From NCBI GenBank assembly GCA_005884925.1, contig VAYU01000023.1, positions 1 to 64,000 on the forward strand: DNA of 64,000 nucleotides, given 5' to 3'. Source of the DNA: Actinomycetota bacterium (GTDB lineage: Bacteria; Actinomycetota; UBA4738; HRBIN12). The notes beneath the pieces were generated by a model, which saw only the letters and a list, made by a program, of their open reading frames with translations, was not told where the DNA came from and made no database searches. Position 1 is the stretch's first letter. Every line of letters starts with the position of its first letter. The translations under genes and the position numbers were made by a program. Shown one piece after another: positions 7,778 to 59,192 of this stretch.

Positions 7778-8074
7778 GTGCCGAGCATCGTCGAGGTCGA
7801 CCCCGGACGCCGCACGATCGTCCTTCACGGCGAGATCGACATGGCCAACGCCGGCGAGCTGCGTGCGGCGATCGCTGAGGCCGACTGGATGGATGGCGAG
7901 CCCGTCGATGTCGACCTCTCGGATCTGCGGTTCATCGATTCGTCGGGGGTCGGTGCACTGTTGCTCGCGACCGAGCGCGGATCCCGACTCATCCTTCGTG
8001 CCCCCACCCCGCCCGTCCGACGGCTGTTGGAGGTACTGAGCCTGGACTCCGCGGCCGGGATCGAGATCGCCTGA
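7778..8074 (+). CDS. STAS-domain anti-sigma factor antagonist
   Basis: A 98-residue single STAS domain of the SpoIIAA/RsbV type. HGEIDMANAGELRAAI forms the first strand-helix unit and LRFIDSSGVGALL (~50-62) holds the serine that such proteins carry for phosphorylation by a partner kinase. It begins with GTG at 7778. In partner switching the unphosphorylated form binds an anti-sigma kinase; a candidate kinase (HATPase at 8619) is encoded 0.5 kb away. The 264 bp downstream show no convincing gene. Confidence 0.88.
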   Translation: MPSIVEVDPGRRTIVLHGEIDMANAGELRAAIAEADWMDGEPVDVDLSDLRFIDSSGVGALLLATERGSRLILRAPTPPVRRLLEVLSLDSAAGIEIA

Positions 8075-8338
8075 CGATCGCGCCACCGGGACGCTCGGCG
8101 ACGTGCCCAGAGCGAAAGGGCCGCGACGACGAGACGCTGTTGATCTACTCGGTGACGAAAGAAACGGGGATCATCGCGATCCAGAAGATCGTCAACCACG
8201 CGTTCGCGCGACGCACGAACACCTTGGCCCGATGCCCAGAGCATCTTCACCATCTCGGTCATCCCCCGCTCGCCCCGCACTCCATCGCCGACCGCGACAG
8301 CGTCCCCGGACCAGGGGTGTCGAAACCCGACGAGGGCG

Positions 8339-8482
8339 TCAACCGGCGAGGACGAGCGCCACGCCGAGGACCACGACGCCGACCGCCAGCAGATGCAAGC
8401 CGCTGATGCCGAACGCGTGACTCGTGAAGACCACGAGGACGCCGAGGACGATGGCGACCACGGCGAGGATCCGTCGGATCAT
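8339..8482 (-). CDS. small two-helix membrane protein (47 aa)
   Basis: A 47-residue protein made almost wholly of two hydrophobic helices (AVVAIVLGVLVVF and LLAVGVVVLGVALVLA) with a basic MIRR start. GGAGG lies about 9 bp before the ATG at 8482, supporting expression. A stress-sigma-like promoter sits upstream at 8517-8541. Function unknown; such tiny membrane proteins are common beside stress genes. Confidence 0.68.
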   Translation of the reverse strand: MIRRILAVVAIVLGVLVVFTSHAFGISGLHLLAVGVVVLGVALVLAG

Positions 8483-8618: not shown

Positions 8619-9056
8619 ATGGGCCAAGATCGTGCGGCCGCGGCGGACGTGACGACCTGGGGATTGGAGCTGAGCGTCCCGCCAGAGACGAGCGTGGTCG
8701 CGGACGTACGGCGATCGTTCGACGCGCTCGCATTGCCGACGGATGTCCGAGACGACGCTCGGCTGCTGGTCACAGAACTCGTGTCGAACAGCATCCGGCA
8801 TGCGGCCTTGCGATCCGACGAGCGCATCCGGATCTCGGCCACGTGGTCGGGCCACAGTCTCAAGGTGGTCGTTCGCGATCACGAACACGGGCGACCCGTC
8901 AGGATCGCTGGAAGCATCAGGCCCGTCCCCGGAGCGGGATCGGGGTGGGGCCTGTTCATCGTCAACCAGCTGGCGAGCAGGTGGGGAGCCGTCCAAGACG
9001 GAGGAGCCGGCTTCTGGTTCGAACTCGATGCGTCCTCGCTGGGAAGCCGCGCCTAG
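8619..9056 (+). CDS. RsbW/SpoIIAB-like HATPase regulator
   Basis: A 145-residue single GHKL ATPase domain of the anti-sigma-factor kinase type. The N box reads LLVTELVSNSIRHA (~48-61), the G1-like box VRDHEHGRP (~87-95) and the G2-like box GSGWGLFIVNQLASRWG (~107-123). Proteins like this bind a sigma factor or phosphorylate a STAS partner; a STAS protein is at 7778. ATG at 8619 follows a purine-rich stretch. Its 3' end overlaps the convergent gene at 9053 by 4 bp. Whether it holds a SigB-like factor cannot be shown here, as no such sigma gene is in the window. Confidence 0.85.
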   Translation: MGQDRAAAADVTTWGLELSVPPETSVVADVRRSFDALALPTDVRDDARLLVTELVSNSIRHAALRSDERIRISATWSGHSLKVVVRDHEHGRPVRIAGSIRPVPGAGSGWGLFIVNQLASRWGAVQDGGAGFWFELDASSLGSRA

Positions 9057-9401: not shown

Positions 9402-9587
9402 CTACTTCTTCTTCTTCGTCACCTTGCGGGCGGCCTTTCCGGCGACGTCTTGCACCGAGCCCTTGGTCTTCTGCATCGCGCCCTTCGCTTCCAGGCTTCG
9501 GTTCTTGGTCACGCGGCCGACCTCCTTCTTCACGCTGCCAACCGCCTTGTTCTTCTTCCCCTTCGCCTGCGTCTTGCTCCCTGCCAT
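9402..9587 (-). CDS. CsbD-like general stress protein
   Basis: A 61-residue Lys-rich hydrophilic protein with the repeated CsbD pattern of G(K/S)xxxxxG spaced along helices (GKKNKAVGSVKKEVG, then SLEAKGAMQKTKGSVQD). CsbD is a classical SigB-regulon protein in Bacillus; its biochemical role is unknown. ATG at 9587 is preferred over ATG 9602 because AGGTGA lies just upstream. A GTTT-N16-GGGAAC promoter candidate lies at 9619-9644, and an IS481 element begins 20 bp further up. Confidence 0.75.
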   Translation of the reverse strand: MAGSKTQAKGKKNKAVGSVKKEVGRVTKNRSLEAKGAMQKTKGSVQDVAGKAARKVTKKKK

Positions 9588-18746: not shown

Positions 18747-21700
18747 GTGGAGAACATGAGCGCCCCGATCGATCCGGCCAGCCATGCCATACGCGCCGCG
18801 GAGCCCGAACCGCTGCGTGAGCATGCCCCCGAGGCCATCGTCGTGCTCGATCCGCACGACGGGCGATTCGTCATGGTCGACGCGGAGGCTGAGCTGCTGT
18901 TCGGGATCGATCGGGAGCGGCTGACGACCGCCGGACCGACCGAGGTGAGCCCGCCGTCGCAGCCGGACGGCCGGTCTTCCGACGCGGCCGCGACCGCGTA
19001 CATCGAGCAGGCCATGCATGGTGAGATGCCGGTGTTCCGGTGGATCTTCCGGCGCGCCGACGGTGACGAGGTGGCGCGGGAGGTCCGGCTGCGGGCGCTG
19101 CCCGGCCCCGATGGTCGCACGCTCGTCCTCGGCAGCATCACCGGCGCGACGACGCGCGATGCCCCGCAGGAGCGACTCGGGGTGTGGGACGCACGCGAGG
19201 CGAGGGACCCGCACGCAGCGTTCATCGCTTCGCTCCATGACGGCTTCGAGATGATGGGTCGCGACGGCACGATCCTCGATGTGAACGAGCGGTTCGCGGA
19301 GATCGTGGGCATGCCTCGCGATGCGATCATCGGGCTGCGGCCGCCCTTCCCGTGGTGGTTCGCGGAGGGACCCGAGCGGAGCCGCGTCGAGCAAGCCTTG
19401 GCGTCGGTGATCGACGGTGGCTCGGGCGAATTCGACTTCACCTTCCGGCGACCCGACGGCCGGACGGTCGACGTGATCCTGAATGCCAACGAGGTCGTTG
19501 GTTCCGACGGCGAGCGGTTGGGACTGGTTGCGATCGTCAAGGACGTCAGCGAGCGCGTGGCCGCACAGGCGGAACGCGATGAGCTGGTGACCAGCTTGGC
19601 GGAGGAACGCTCGCAGCTCGCGATGGTCCTGCAGCGCCTTTCGCGTCTCCAGGGATTCACGGCGTCCATCGCTGAGCGCCTGACGCAAGCCGAGGTGATC
19701 GATTCCTTGCTGTCGGCCGCGCGAGAGGCGGTTCACGCATCGGGTGCCGCCGTCATCTTGCTCACGGACGACGACGTGCTGGCCGTCGTCGCGACGGACG
19801 GCGAACTCGATCCAGAGATGATCCCCGCGACATCGTCCCCGACGGTTGCGGGCGATATCCAAGAGGCGTTCCGGACGGGGAGGGCACGATGGTTGGAACC
19901 CCGCCCGCGCGGGGAGGGTGCGCCGGATGACCGCTGGGGCTTCATCCCGCTCGTGCGCCGTGGCGGCTCCATGGGCCTGCTCGCGATCCGCTGCCCGGAA
20001 GCCACCTTCACGTCCGAAGATCGCGCCATGCTCGAGACGATGGTATGGCAGGCATCCCAGGCGCTCGAGCGGGCGCGGCTCCTGGAGAGCGAGGCGCGCA
20101 GCCGGCAGACGCTGGCTCGGGTGCTCGCGGTGAGCGATGCGGCGTTGGAGTGGCTCGGCTCCGACGACGCTCTTCACTCGCTCCTGCGACGCATCCGCGA
20201 GGCCCTGGGAACGGACAGCGCATCGCTCCTGGTGCTCCGGGGTGACACCCTGTACGTGCGCGCGACCGATGGGTTGGAACGGATCCCCGAGGAACAGGTC
20301 CCGATCCCGCTCGGGAAAGGCTTCTCGGGGCGCGTCGCAGCAGGGCGAACGCCGCTGATGGTCGAAGATGTCTCCCGCTTCGAGGTCGTGAGCCCATGGC
20401 TCCGCGAACGCCTCCGATCGGTCGTCGGCGTCCCGATCTTCCGTGCGGACGACGTGGTCGGCGTGCTTCACGTGGGCTCGACGTCGCACCGTGGGTTCGG
20501 CCGTGGCGATATCGAGCTCCTGGAACTGGTTGCAGCTCGGGTGGGCGGGGCCCTCGAGCGCGCGCGCCTCTTCGAGTCCGCTCGCGCCGCGCGATCCGAC
20601 GCGGCACGAGCGGCCGATCGTCTCCGGCGACTCCAGACGGCGACGGCTGCGCTGACGGGGGCGATCACCGTGCAGGAGGTCTCCACAGCGATCCTGAACC
20701 AGGCGATGGGCGTCGTTCGGGGCGACGCCGGGGTGCTCGTGCTCCCGTCGGACGACGGCCGCCACTTGGCGATCGTCGCCACGACCGGGGAGCCCGAGAC
20801 CCTGAACGGCGTCGGCCGACACCTCGATCGGTACGGGATCGACGACGACGCCGCCATCTGCGAGGCGTACCGATCCGGAACCCTGGTCTGGGTCCCGAGC
20901 CGGCGTGAGTGGAAGCGTCGGTTCGAGGAGGGCACGGCGACCGCAGACTCCACGGCCCGGTCGATCCTGGCGGTGCCGATGTGTATCGACGAACAGCGCC
21001 TCGGTGCGATCGGTCTGCTGTTCGAGTCCGAGGGTCGTCTGAGCAAGGGGGAGCGACGCCTGGCGACGACGTTCGCCGAGCAGGCGGCGTTGGCCCTCGA
21101 GCGAGCGAGACTCTTCGAGGCCGAGCGTGCCGCACGGGATACGACCGAACGCCTGCAGGCGCTCGCGGCGTCGCTGGCCGTCGTCGTGACCGCGAAGGAG
21201 GTCCTGACGATCCTGGTCGAGGACGGAAGCGCGGTCGTGGGCGCGGCATCCGCGTGGGCCGCGGTGCTTGACCGCGGGGCGCAGGAGCTGCAAGCCGTGG
21301 CCTCGCGTGGTTACGGATCGCCGCTGATCGATCCGTTCCAGACGCTATCCCTCGATCTACGGCTGCCGGCAACGGATGCCGTCCGGGAGCGACGCGAGAT
21401 CTGGTTCGACTCGCTCGAGGCCTTCGACCGGGCGTATCCGGGGTTCGACCGCGCGAGCGAGGAGCACGGTGGCGGGTTCGGATGCCTCCCGATGTTCGAC
21501 ACGGCTCGGCGTCCGATCGGTGTCGTGTCGTTGCAGCTCGCTCCGCGCCGGACGATCGGCGAGCGTGAGCGGTCGGCGTTGCGTGCGATCGTGGCGCTCG
21601 GCGCGCAGGCCCTCGAACGCGCGCAGCTCTACGAGCGGGAGCATGCGGTGGCGGCCACCCTGCAGAAGAGCTTGCTCCCGGGTTCGCTCCCCGAGGACCC

Positions 21701-22736
21701 ACGGGTCTCCGTTGCGACCCGCTACCGACCGGGCACCGAGGAGCTCGATGTCGGCGGCGATTGGTACGACGTGATCCGGGTCGGGGACGATCGGATCGGC
21801 GTCGCGATCGGCGACGTCGTCGGGCATGGGCTCGAGGCGGCGAGCGCGATGGGGCAGCTCCGAAGCGCGCTGCGGGGCCTCGCGTTGACCGGCCGTGGGC
21901 CGGGCACCGTCATCGAGGGGCTCGACCGGTTCGCGCGGACGTCGGCCCCGTCGACGATGGCGACCGTCGCGTACGCGGAGCTCGATCTGGAGGACAACGA
22001 GCTGCGGTACGCGTGCGCCGGCCATCCGCCGCCCGCCGTCCAGATCGCGGGGGAGGTCCGCTTCCTCGAACGGGGCCGCACCACGCCGCTCGCCGCGCTT
22101 CCGGAACCCATCCGGTGCAACGAAGAGACGGAGTCGTTCCCGGCGGGTTCGGTGCTGGTGCTGTACTCGGACGGGCTGATCGAGCGACGAGGCGAGCAGC
22201 TCGATCTAGGGATGGCACGGCTGCGAGACGTCCTGCGGGATGCCCCGTCGGGCCACCCCGAGGCTCTCGCCGATCGCCTCCTCGCCGAGTTGGTGGGTGA
22301 GGTTCCCCAGGACGATGACGTGGCCGTCCTGTGCCTGCGGGCCGCGCCGGAGGCTCCGCCACTGGTCATCTCGATGCCTCCCGAGCCCGCCGCCCTGGCC
22401 GACGTTCGTGCGTCGGTCCGTCGGTGGCTCGATGAGGTTCCGCTTCCGGAAGAGATGCGCGAAGAGGTGGTGCTCGCGTGCAACGAGGCATGTGCGAATG
22501 CGGTCGAGCACGCCTACCTCGACGGTCCGGCTGCTCCGATCCGCGTGAGCCTTCGTCGTAACGCCACGGACATCACGATCGAGATCGTCGATGAAGGCGC
22601 CTGGCGCCGGGATGGTGAGGACGCCGGGCGGGGCCATGGCATGCCCGTCATGCGCGCCCTGATGGACGAGGTCGACCTGCGTCCGACCGATGAGGGCACG
22701 GTCGTCGCCATGAGACGGCGTTTCGCGGAGCGCTAA
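18747..22736 (+). CDS. multi-sensor PAS-PAS-GAF x4 SpoIIE-type phosphatase with HATPase domain
   Basis: A 1329-residue cytoplasmic partner-switch hub. Two PAS units (~25-120 and ~150-275) and about four GAF domains (~315-450, ~465-620, ~630-800, ~810-960) lead to a PP2C/SpoIIE serine phosphatase (~965-1195) and a terminal GHKL ATPase (~1210-1329). Phosphatase metal residues appear in DVGGDWYDVI, IGDVVGHGLEAA, LYSDGLIERR and QDDDVAVLCL. The ATPase N box is LACNEACANAVEHAY, with EIVDEGAWR and GHGMPVMR. Such proteins dephosphorylate a STAS antagonist and hold an anti-sigma-kinase domain in one chain. A STAS gene follows 2 bp later. GTG 18747 or ATG 18756 may start it. Confidence 0.92.
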   Translation: MENMSAPIDPASHAIRAAEPEPLREHAPEAIVVLDPHDGRFVMVDAEAELLFGIDRERLTTAGPTEVSPPSQPDGRSSDAAATAYIEQAMHGEMPVFRWIFRRADGDEVAREVRLRALPGPDGRTLVLGSITGATTRDAPQERLGVWDAREARDPHAAFIASLHDGFEMMGRDGTILDVNERFAEIVGMPRDAIIGLRPPFPWWFAEGPERSRVEQALASVIDGGSGEFDFTFRRPDGRTVDVILNANEVVGSDGERLGLVAIVKDVSERVAAQAERDELVTSLAEERSQLAMVLQRLSRLQGFTASIAERLTQAEVIDSLLSAAREAVHASGAAVILLTDDDVLAVVATDGELDPEMIPATSSPTVAGDIQEAFRTGRARWLEPRPRGEGAPDDRWGFIPLVRRGGSMGLLAIRCPEATFTSEDRAMLETMVWQASQALERARLLESEARSRQTLARVLAVSDAALEWLGSDDALHSLLRRIREALGTDSASLLVLRGDTLYVRATDGLERIPEEQVPIPLGKGFSGRVAAGRTPLMVEDVSRFEVVSPWLRERLRSVVGVPIFRADDVVGVLHVGSTSHRGFGRGDIELLELVAARVGGALERARLFESARAARSDAARAADRLRRLQTATAALTGAITVQEVSTAILNQAMGVVRGDAGVLVLPSDDGRHLAIVATTGEPETLNGVGRHLDRYGIDDDAAICEAYRSGTLVWVPSRREWKRRFEEGTATADSTARSILAVPMCIDEQRLGAIGLLFESEGRLSKGERRLATTFAEQAALALERARLFEAERAARDTTERLQALAASLAVVVTAKEVLTILVEDGSAVVGAASAWAAVLDRGAQELQAVASRGYGSPLIDPFQTLSLDLRLPATDAVRERREIWFDSLEAFDRAYPGFDRASEEHGGGFGCLPMFDTARRPIGVVSLQLAPRRTIGERERSALRAIVALGAQALERAQLYEREHAVAATLQKSLLPGSLPEDPRVSVATRYRPGTEELDVGGDWYDVIRVGDDRIGVAIGDVVGHGLEAASAMGQLRSALRGLALTGRGPGTVIEGLDRFARTSAPSTMATVAYAELDLEDNELRYACAGHPPPAVQIAGEVRFLERGRTTPLAALPEPIRCNEETESFPAGSVLVLYSDGLIERRGEQLDLGMARLRDVLRDAPSGHPEALADRLLAELVGEVPQDDDVAVLCLRAAPEAPPLVISMPPEPAALADVRASVRRWLDEVPLPEEMREEVVLACNEACANAVEHAYLDGPAAPIRVSLRRNATDITIEIVDEGAWRRDGEDAGRGHGMPVMRALMDEVDLRPTDEGTVVAMRRRFAER

Positions 22737-22738
22737 CC

Positions 22739-23173
22739 ATGCCGGCGGGACCCGATGGACGATCCGAGCCTGCGGCCCACGGATATACTCGTGATCCCGC
22801 GCCGAGGACCCACGAAGGGACGTCTGAGATCGATCTCACCGTGCGTTCCCGCGTCGTCGCTGGGTGGACCGTCCTCTCCGTCGAAGGCGAGGTCGACCTG
22901 TATACAGCGCCCGCGGTGCGAGACGCGGCCGTGGCGGCGATGGAGTCCGGCGTCGACCACCTGGTCCTTGACCTGACCGCCGTCCCCTTCATCGATTCCA
23001 GTGGGCTGGGCGTGATCGTAGCGTGCCTGAAGCGGCTCCGCGAGGTAGGCGGCGATCTCGCACTCGTGAGCCCGCCGAGCTCACCGCCGACCAAGCTCCT
23101 TTCCGTGACCGGTCTCGATCATGCGATCCCGACGCACGCGACGGTGGACGCGGCCCTCGCCGACGTGCACTGA
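22739..23173 (+). CDS. STAS-domain anti-sigma factor antagonist
   Basis: A 144-residue protein whose STAS domain spans ~32-142: SVEGEVDLYTAPAVRDAA, then LVLDLTAVPFIDSSGLGVIV with the phosphorylatable serine and LALVSPP. The first ~30 residues are unconserved; a later start such as GTG at VRSRV is possible. It lies directly behind the SpoIIE/HATPase hub and is its most likely substrate. The 3' end meets the convergent gene at 23175. Confidence 0.88.
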   Translation: MPAGPDGRSEPAAHGYTRDPAPRTHEGTSEIDLTVRSRVVAGWTVLSVEGEVDLYTAPAVRDAAVAAMESGVDHLVLDLTAVPFIDSSGLGVIVACLKRLREVGGDLALVSPPSSPPTKLLSVTGLDHAIPTHATVDAALADVH

Positions 23174-25205: not shown

Positions 25206-26087
25206 TCAACCGTTCGTGTCGAGACGGCGGATCGAAGGCGGGTTGGCGACGAGGTCGATCGCCACGATGCGATCGTTCGACACGGTGAACGCCACGACGG
25301 CGATCGGGTGCTCGGGGTCACCGACGATCGCTCCGACGCTCCCGTTCACCGTGGCGAGTCGTGCGAGCGGCGCGAGCGGGGAGCCGCGCGACATGATGCG
25401 TTCCGCGACCGGCCGGGCGCCCGTCACGGTCACGCTCGGCGTCCCACGCCTCCCGGATCCGACGTGGAAGATCACGTCCGGATCCAACACCTCGAGGAGC
25501 GCCTCGAAGTCGCCGGAGCGCGACGCCGCGAGGAACGCGTCGACCACGCGTCGTTGCACGCGGATGTCGGTCTCGGCCGGAAGCGTGCCCCCTCGGACCG
25601 ACCGACGAGCACGGCTCGCAAGCTGGCGGGTCGCGACCGCGGACCGACCGACGATGCGTCCGATGTCGTCGAACGGCATGTCGAAGACGTCGTGGAGGAC
25701 GAACGCGACCCGCTCGGCCGGCCGCAACCGCTCCAAGACCACGAGGAGCGCAAGGCTGACCGAGTCCGCCGCCATGGCCTGTTCCTCGGGGTCATCTGAG
25801 GGGTCATCGCTCACGATCGGCTCCGGGACCCATGGTCGGATGTCGTCGGGACGGGCCCGCCGAGCGCGAAGCACGTCGAGGCAGATCCGACCGACGACGG
25901 TCGTCAGCCACGCCCGGAAGTCATCGATCGTGTCCTCGCTCCGGTCGAGCCGCAGCCAGGATTCCTGCACGGCGTCGTCGGCCTCCGTGAGCGAGCCGAG
26001 CATGCGGTACGCGACGGCACGGAGGTGCGGTCGTTGCTCCTCGAACGCCCTGGCGAGCCACTCTCGCCGCTCCATCAGGTCCTCCAC
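25206..26087 (-). CDS. SigJ-type (ECF41-like) sigma factor with SnoaL-like C-terminal domain
   Basis: A 293-residue ECF sigma factor. Region 2 reads LRAVAYRMLGSLTEADDAVQESWLRL (~22-47) and region 4 has ERVAFVLHDVFDMPFDDIG and the helix-turn-helix GRSAVATRQLASRARR (~147-162). Residues ~180-290 form an NTF2/SnoaL-like domain (RRVVDAFLAASRSGDFEALL, VLDPDVIFH), the hallmark of SigJ/ECF41 factors, in which this tail tunes activity. Such factors usually sit beside a carboxymuconolactone or oxidoreductase gene; here the divergent neighbour is an ABC exporter 117 bp away. Starts at ATG 26087, or four codons later. Confidence 0.92.
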   Translation of the reverse strand: MEDLMERREWLARAFEEQRPHLRAVAYRMLGSLTEADDAVQESWLRLDRSEDTIDDFRAWLTTVVGRICLDVLRARRARPDDIRPWVPEPIVSDDPSDDPEEQAMAADSVSLALLVVLERLRPAERVAFVLHDVFDMPFDDIGRIVGRSAVATRQLASRARRSVRGGTLPAETDIRVQRRVVDAFLAASRSGDFEALLEVLDPDVIFHVGSGRRGTPSVTVTGARPVAERIMSRGSPLAPLARLATVNGSVGAIVGDPEHPIAVVAFTVSNDRIVAIDLVANPPSIRRLDTNG

Positions 26088-58677: not shown

Positions 58678-59013
58678 TCAAACCGCCACAGCTCGGACGG
58701 GAACCGTGCAGGGGATGATGTGAAGGTTGGTCGACGCTTGATCGACGCCCATGATCTCCAAGACCCTCTTGGGGGCGTTGCGGACACCGTGGAGCAGGAT
58801 GCAGCCCGAAGGCAGCGCGTTGAGGCTTCGAACGATCGATCCAACGCCACTTGAATCGATGAACACCAGTTCCGACAGATCGAGGGTCACGGGTCCACCC
58901 TTCGCGATCGCCGGGGCGATGGCGGTCTCCATCAGCGGCGCGGTCGACATGTCGAGCTCACCGCTCAGGAAGAACATCCTCGGTCCATCAGAGTTGATAG
59001 CGAAGTCCGTCAT
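58678..59013 (-). CDS. STAS-domain protein
   Basis: A 111-residue single STAS domain: FFLSGELDMSTAPLMETAIA and LSELVFIDSSGVGSIV (~48-63, with the phosphorylatable serine), then the helix RNAPKRVLEIMGVD and a hydrophobic end. It is the third such antagonist in the window. No kinase or phosphatase is adjacent, so its partner may be the hub at 18747 or the RsbW-like protein at 8619. Confidence 0.88.
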   Translation of the reverse strand: MTDFAINSDGPRMFFLSGELDMSTAPLMETAIAPAIAKGGPVTLDLSELVFIDSSGVGSIVRSLNALPSGCILLHGVRNAPKRVLEIMGVDQASTNLHIIPCTVPVRAVAV

Positions 59014-59192
59014 CGAGGCGCCCTTCGTTCAGGGTCGGGAGGGCAGCCAGTCAGGCGTGCGCGGACGGTCCAGGCGACCGGGATTCGTTCTTCTTGCACG
59101 ATACACCCTCGGCCGGATGGTGGCGAAGTCGCCGGTTGCGCGGGTCCGCCGTCCGGGCGGACGATGACCGAACCACTCGGGGGAGGGATCTC

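Follow-up and report, generated by a model that had tools for sequence, protein, structure and literature searches.

The gene pair at positions 18,747 to 23,173 of the window (the 64,000 nucleotides of an Actinomycetota contig analysed here) encodes a 1329-residue sensor protein, called hub1 below, and a small STAS protein. With a probability that we put at roughly 0.6, the two would serve as the sensory input to a partner-switching pathway controlling a sigma factor of the SigB/F/G type, whose gene lies on another contig of the same genome, C94. Signals reaching the PAS and GAF domains of hub1 would alter a helical linker and the dimer of its SpoIIE phosphatase, by analogy with RsbU and its relatives, for which signalling through such a linker to the phosphatase dimer is argued in an excerpt of PMC12143880. 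When no signal is present, the HATPase domain of hub1 would phosphorylate the STAS serine, a step suggested by its kept ATP motifs and by homology; upon signal, the SpoIIE domain would strip this phosphate, as its kept metal-binding residues and homology suggest. The dephosphorylated STAS protein would then bind an anti-sigma HATPase, one whose gene neighbours the sigma gene, and so release the sigma factor, which is how we read the STAS tree and the gene neighbourhoods. Taken together, the kept motifs of the hubs, their linkage to STAS genes, the placing of the hub1 STAS protein and the loss of an Asn in the sigma-locus HATPases argue that the hub probably supplies both kinase and phosphatase, and that a separate, probably non-kinase anti-sigma factor holds the sigma factor.

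The hub1 ORF (18747-22736, + strand) starts with GTG, contains no internal stop, and has an alternative ATG start 9 bp inside, at 18756. Pfam was run on the entire protein and on eight consecutive pieces of it, and gave the order PAS-PAS-GAF-GAF-GAF-GAF-SpoIIE-HATPase. PAS 1 occupies 18819-19133 (residues 25-129; PAS_4, E 4e-9) and PAS 2 19218-19559 (residues about 158-271; PAS_9, 2.3e-13; PAS_4, 8.1e-13). The GAF domains, all GAF_2 matches, are at 19683-20069 (1.4e-11), 20163-20558 (5.2e-16), 20667-21101 (4e-13) and 21192-21617 (1.3e-10). A helical linker into the phosphatase (21603-21674, helix 2-25 of the AlphaFold2 model described below) is a candidate coiled coil transmitting the signal, by analogy with RsbU, RsbP and RssB as treated in part of PMC12143880. 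It leads to the SpoIIE-type PPM phosphatase (21786-22340, residues 1014-1198; Pfam SpoIIE, 6.3e-45), followed by an RsbW/SpoIIAB-type HATPase (22377-22715, residues 1211-1323; HATPase_c_2, 6.3e-28). The initial annotation had announced a protein of 1329 residues with two PAS, about four GAF, a SpoIIE and a HATPase domain; ORF and Pfam bear this out, and the GAF count is exactly four. The domain arrangement and the downstream STAS gene are correct, far above chance.

The STAS gene follows on the same strand (22739-23173, 144 aa; domain 22844-23155, Pfam STAS, 2.6e-21). The gap of 2 bp that had been described between the two genes was read directly, from the hub1 TAA at 22734-22736 to the STAS ATG at 22739. 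The protein scores above the cut-off of NCBIfam TIGR00377, the anti-sigma factor antagonist superfamily (83 bits versus 53.45), and is of the phosphorylatable type, with Asp-Ser-Ser-Gly (DSSG) from 22994. The predicted phospho-Ser codon is 22997-22999 (Ser87), within FIDSSGLG, that is, the first Ser of the motif, which we take to be the acceptor after SpoIIAA and RsbV.

The closest orthologue of hub1 is found in a same-genus relative (genome G002; locus L072, G002:C68, VAXZ01000064.1), and is 85% identical over residues 149-1328. PAS 1 is missing there: on a contig that extends further upstream, no tblastn match of residues 1-155 was better than E 0.27. The earliest possible in-frame STAS ATG of this locus is 35 bp past the hub stop. 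The hub-then-STAS order is thus conserved between the two, and the six sensors and the 2-bp gap are local details, particular to the window's genome. Comparison of the STAS ORF starts (window 22760-22850) revealed about 30 first codons that are poorly conserved and changed in length, then about 39 bases without difference; GGATATACT is likewise common to both. This interval may contain the true STAS start or an internal promoter.

The SpoIIE domain of hub1 scores 153.9 bits against a curated cut-off of 25, and its phosphatase motifs GGDWYD, GDVxGHG, DG and DD are intact. The corresponding positions G52, G53, D54, W55, G71, D72, D191, G192, D239 and D240 do not vary among the 20 aligned sequences. 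With its metal-binding Asp residues kept, the domain is a putative phospho-Ser STAS phosphatase. The HATPase domain scores 97.8 bits (HATPase_c_2, cut-off 27.4) and presents the N-box Glu (22485-22487) and Asn (22497-22499), both invariant in the 20 sequences, as well as the Asp (22590-22592) and Gly of G1. For Ser kinases of the RsbW/SpoIIAB type, the full G1 motif reads DxGxG; that of hub1, at 22590, is DEGAW, with Trp in place of the final Gly. The Trp is shared by related hubs (W335, invariant in 20/20), and Rv1364c of Mycobacterium tuberculosis has DRGQW. Kept ATP motifs and homology make this domain a predicted STAS kinase.

An AlphaFold2 model of 21600-22733, built from 20 aligned sequences, reached a mean pLDDT of 87.6 and a pTM of 0.74. 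Its best fold match was Rv1364c (3ke6; Z 32.2, rmsd 7.2 over 338 aligned residues; Foldseek 8.0e-28), so that both Rv1364c domains, phosphatase and kinase, are matched side by side, and their relative placing differs. The next matches of the phosphatase were SiaA, SpoIIE and RssB phosphatases (Z 21-26; SpoIIE 5ucg, 24.0), and those of the ATPase were B. subtilis RsbW and Bacillus SpoIIAB, at Z about 18 (RsbW 6m37, 18.5).

Hubs and STAS genes were then counted in the best 80 of 522 relatives, a choice biased towards hub1, and in further loci. For loci beyond the window, domain calls used purpose-built profiles, and frames were measured stop-to-stop. The motif tally and the STAS and hub trees took in the window, L037, L045, L046, L049, L073-L151 and L162-L177. 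They left out L042-L044, L047, L048, L050-L071 and L152-L161, some of which are shorter duplicates of used stretches; L072 was omitted because L177 is the same record. In this set (best 80 of 522 plus further loci), where near-identical orthologues count separately for motifs and linkage alike, 72 SpoIIE frames had a C-terminal HATPase: a STAS gene was directly downstream in 18, fused in 3 and absent in 50, and one left no room for it. SpoIIE frames lacking the HATPase had a directly downstream STAS gene in 0 of 41 cases; outside the tallied set one exception was seen, L048, with STAS at +24. The coupling of the hub to a STAS partner, proposed from the window, is therefore a recurrent linkage. 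The size of hub1, called giant, is not special and was dropped as a novelty, since longer hubs, measured stop-to-stop, were found: that of L080 has 1433 aa, four GAF-like domains and an adjacent STAS gene, and that of L083 reaches 1596 aa with STAS fused.

The same tally bears on whether hub1 acts as a phosphatase only. Its HATPase would then be a docking or regulatory domain, binding the STAS protein or nucleotide, and the kinase would be another protein. Among the best 80 of 522 relatives and further loci, Ser replaces the G1 Gly in 40 of the 50 hubs without a neighbouring STAS gene (many of those among L073-L151 are Streptomyces). The domain can thus lose its canonical motifs, and those HATPases may be altered or non-kinase; the Trp of DEGAW points the same way for hub1. 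The window also holds a separate STAS/HATPase pair, namely a second STAS protein, not part of hub1 (7778-8074, +; domain search), and a stand-alone HATPase (8619-9056, +) found by domain search, whose N-box Glu and Asn are kept by motif reading (LLVTELVSNSIRHA). The two are possibly a separate partner switch, and the HATPase is a candidate rival source of STAS kinase. However, all 21 STAS-linked hubs of the same sample (best 80 of 522 plus further loci) keep the five checked positions, N-box Glu and Asn, G1 Asp and Gly, and G2 Gly. For Rv1364c, a paper of 2008 bears the title 'Loss of kinase activity', which speaks for the phosphatase-only reading, and later work on that protein is reported to show kinase activity in a section of PMC7693655, which speaks against it. 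We consider the phosphatase-only reading unlikely, and retain hub1 as predicted kinase and phosphatase. Counted against this preference are the other kinase candidates of the genome (a second hub, hub2, and the HATPase at 8619-9056), DEGAW itself, and the 50 of 72 SpoIIE-HATPase frames without adjacent STAS (best 80 of 522 plus further loci), to which the kept Asn of L079, L080 and L091, described below, is added. Two other features of the window were recorded: at 58681-59028 (-) another STAS protein, the third, which also carries DSSG, and at 25206-26087 (-), 2 kb away from the hub operon, an ECF-type sigma factor whose C-terminal part gives a weak SnoaL-like match.

The genome of the window (G000; 2.70 Mb, 91.8% complete) contains three SpoIIE matches, of which hub1 and hub2 are strong. 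Hub2 lies on the window's own contig (C102:78818-81598) and has a MASE1-PAS-SpoIIE-HATPase order and an overlapping STAS gene. Its STAS protein groups with other hub-adjacent STAS proteins. That of hub1 shares 51% identity with the STAS protein of C94 and 53% with a sigma-locus STAS protein of genome G003, versus at most 36% with other hub-adjacent STAS proteins of the sample (best 80 of 522 plus further loci), its orthologue apart. The tree nests hub1 STAS, together with its orthologue, within a sigma-linked clade (98/89 with 41 rows; 94/90 with 11 rows dropped), the bootstrap for placing hub1 STAS with sigma-adjacent antagonists being 94-98%. A single clade of all 18 hub-adjacent STAS proteins (best 80 of 522 plus further loci) was rejected, with p-AU 0.00207 for the full and 0.00203 for the reduced set. 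A sigma-linked clade excluding hub1 STAS was not rejected (p-AU 0.27), which allows an origin within or beside the sigma-linked group. One sigma-locus STAS protein, L167_5876, falls elsewhere in the tree and was excluded from the sigma-linked group in these tests. Given these identities and tree positions, hub1 carries, as judged by sequence, an antagonist of the SigF type, an unusual choice of partner. Besides the hub, a switch with such a partner requires two further components, a sigma factor and its anti-sigma factor, which the initial annotation did not include and which would be encoded on C94; the initial idea that one protein could set the switch is therefore incomplete.

The sigma gene at C94:10859-11749 is of the SigB/F/G type (TIGR02980, 269.5 bits versus a cut-off of 234.35), and is the sole such match at E <= 1e-40 in the genome. 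A small HATPase-like ORF lies ahead of it, and a STAS-HATPase pair is divergent. Hub1 (C102) and the sigma gene are on different contigs and no linkage between them was found in this genome, so that their link there rests on homology. Elsewhere the genes are neighbours: L080 has the order hub, STAS, second STAS, sigma, HATPase, and Pseudonocardia dioxanivorans (L091) the order HATPase, sigma, hub, STAS. A strong SpoIIE match was present in 8 of 9 genomes with the sigma factor versus 2 of 8 without it (Fisher p 0.015, for all 17 family genomes found, which are incomplete, and ignoring shared ancestry).

Each of the 10 family sigma loci read has one or two small HATPase-like frames beside the sigma gene. 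Small HATPases encoded no more than 3 kb from a sigma gene numbered 22. The N-box Asn is lost in 17 of the 19 that belong to the family of the window's genome; it is kept in two (G015 and G004), which are also near the sigma gene, and in all three from other lineages (L079, L080 and L091, among the best 80 of 522 relatives). The loss of Asn is thus a tendency, not a rule. By analogy with the M. smegmatis switch discussed below, the C94 HATPases would bind the sigma factor and the hubs would phosphorylate the antagonist. The HATPase of hub1 could instead be the anti-sigma factor itself, binding sigma directly like Bacillus RsbW, the C94 HATPases doing something else. Its fold matches SpoIIAB, including its structure in complex with sigma F (1l0o, Z 17.9), and binding of Rv1364c to SigF in vitro is reported in a section of PMC7693655, but the small frames found at every family sigma locus read fit dedicated anti-sigma factors, and we hold this reading for quite improbable. 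That hub1 and its STAS protein act on a non-sigma target, as do SypE and SypA (whose target is given as unknown, and not an anti-sigma factor, in an excerpt of PMC10120452), seems just as improbable, since the tree puts hub1 STAS among SigF-locus antagonists and hub, STAS and sigma are neighbours in L080 and L091.

If the hub does act as kinase and phosphatase upstream of a separate anti-sigma factor, a history of the family can be tentatively proposed, which we hold to be somewhat less than an even bet. The sigma-side HATPases would have given up kinase activity, phosphorylation of the antagonist would have been taken over by sensor hubs, which also remove the phosphate, and hub1 would have acquired a duplicated SigF-type antagonist downstream. 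In genome G002 the sigma locus has a further hub next to it, hub3 (L162 5788-9388), with four GAF-like domains, SpoIIE and HATPase. The corresponding position in the window's genome (L163 8468-8531) lacks it, and the flanks align almost directly there. Hub3, with four GAF-like domains too, is at 45% the best match to hub1 beyond the orthologue. The hub tree, which kept 19 of 51 STAS-free hub frames (the remaining 32, most of them Streptomyces, had been removed in a prior thinning of the best 80 of 522 relatives and further loci), leaves the fork open, and we do not claim hub1 as a duplicate of hub3.

Promoter patterns were also considered. GTTT-N12-17-GGGWA matched 5 times in L163 (0.20 expected) and 4 times in L162 (0.17 expected), and a scan for it found no SigF-type pattern near hub1 or its STAS gene, which counts against the proposed pathway. 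A stricter SigF-type pattern was not limited to sigma-bearing genomes among the 17 (G013 had 8 matches and G016 had 6). One recurrent match resembles 16S rRNA, presumably at a primer site. SigF-type promoters were therefore rejected as proof of a shared regulon, being absent near hub1 and STAS and present in genomes without the sigma factor. A divergent pair of SigB/F-like patterns is conserved near the sigma locus, at 8315-8339 (-) and 8371-8394 (+) of L163 (G000:C94), with a counterpart in L162 (G002:C103) at 9507-9531 (+) and 9460-9483 (-), one of which is at the upstream end of the hub3 frame.

Should the proposed history be true, a duplicated SigF-type antagonist would wire a six-domain sensor array straight to a stress sigma factor, and many signals could reach that factor via one protein in an uncultured soil lineage. 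The sequences also yield a clear prediction of which ATPases of the pathway are kinases and which are sigma binders only, and this would aid the annotation of the many actinobacterial SpoIIE-HATPase proteins. Rv1364c, SypE and the SigF switch of M. smegmatis already embody the principle. The opposed activities proposed for one chain are accordingly plausible as far as kept catalytic residues tell, but they lose their novelty, having reported precedents in Rv1364c and SypE. What the analysis adds is the proposed link to the sigma locus of SigF type and, at that locus, a predicted loss of kinase function.

Hub1 belongs, well preserved, to the partner-switching family. It stands close to Rv1364c, its best sequence match over phosphatase and kinase (phmmer 1.7e-46), but is split and richer in sensors. 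Both have the order sensor, SpoIIE/RsbU phosphatase, RsbW kinase, STAS, the structure 3ke6 covering the RsbU and RsbW domains. According to parts of PMC9138534, Rv1364c has one PAS and a fused STAS domain, whereas hub1 has two PAS and four GAF domains and its SigF-antagonist-type STAS protein is a separate gene product, encoded 2 bp downstream. Rv1364c reportedly adds phosphate to its own STAS domain and also removes it (section 8.5 of PMC9138534, and a section of PMC7693655). In the open-access literature searched with limited terms, we found no description of the exact split hub/STAS arrangement. To our knowledge, phosphatases of the RsbP, RsbU and RsbZ type have no C-terminal HATPase in the same chain, unlike hub1. 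They share with it the sensor, the helical linker and a PPM phosphatase for a STAS antagonist, and RsbZ also has tandem GAF domains (excerpt of PMC12143880). In Vibrio fischeri, SypE unites kinase and phosphatase for one STAS protein, SypA, as proposed for hub1, but in a kinase-REC-phosphatase order and with a STAS output that is not an anti-sigma factor, according to an excerpt of PMC10120452. In M. smegmatis, the anti-SigF factor RsbW1 does not phosphorylate RsfB, whereas RsbW2, with conserved motifs, does (section of PMC7693655). As in our proposal, sigma binding and STAS phosphorylation are there split between two HATPases; the kinase RsbW2, however, is a small separate protein outside any sensor phosphatase.
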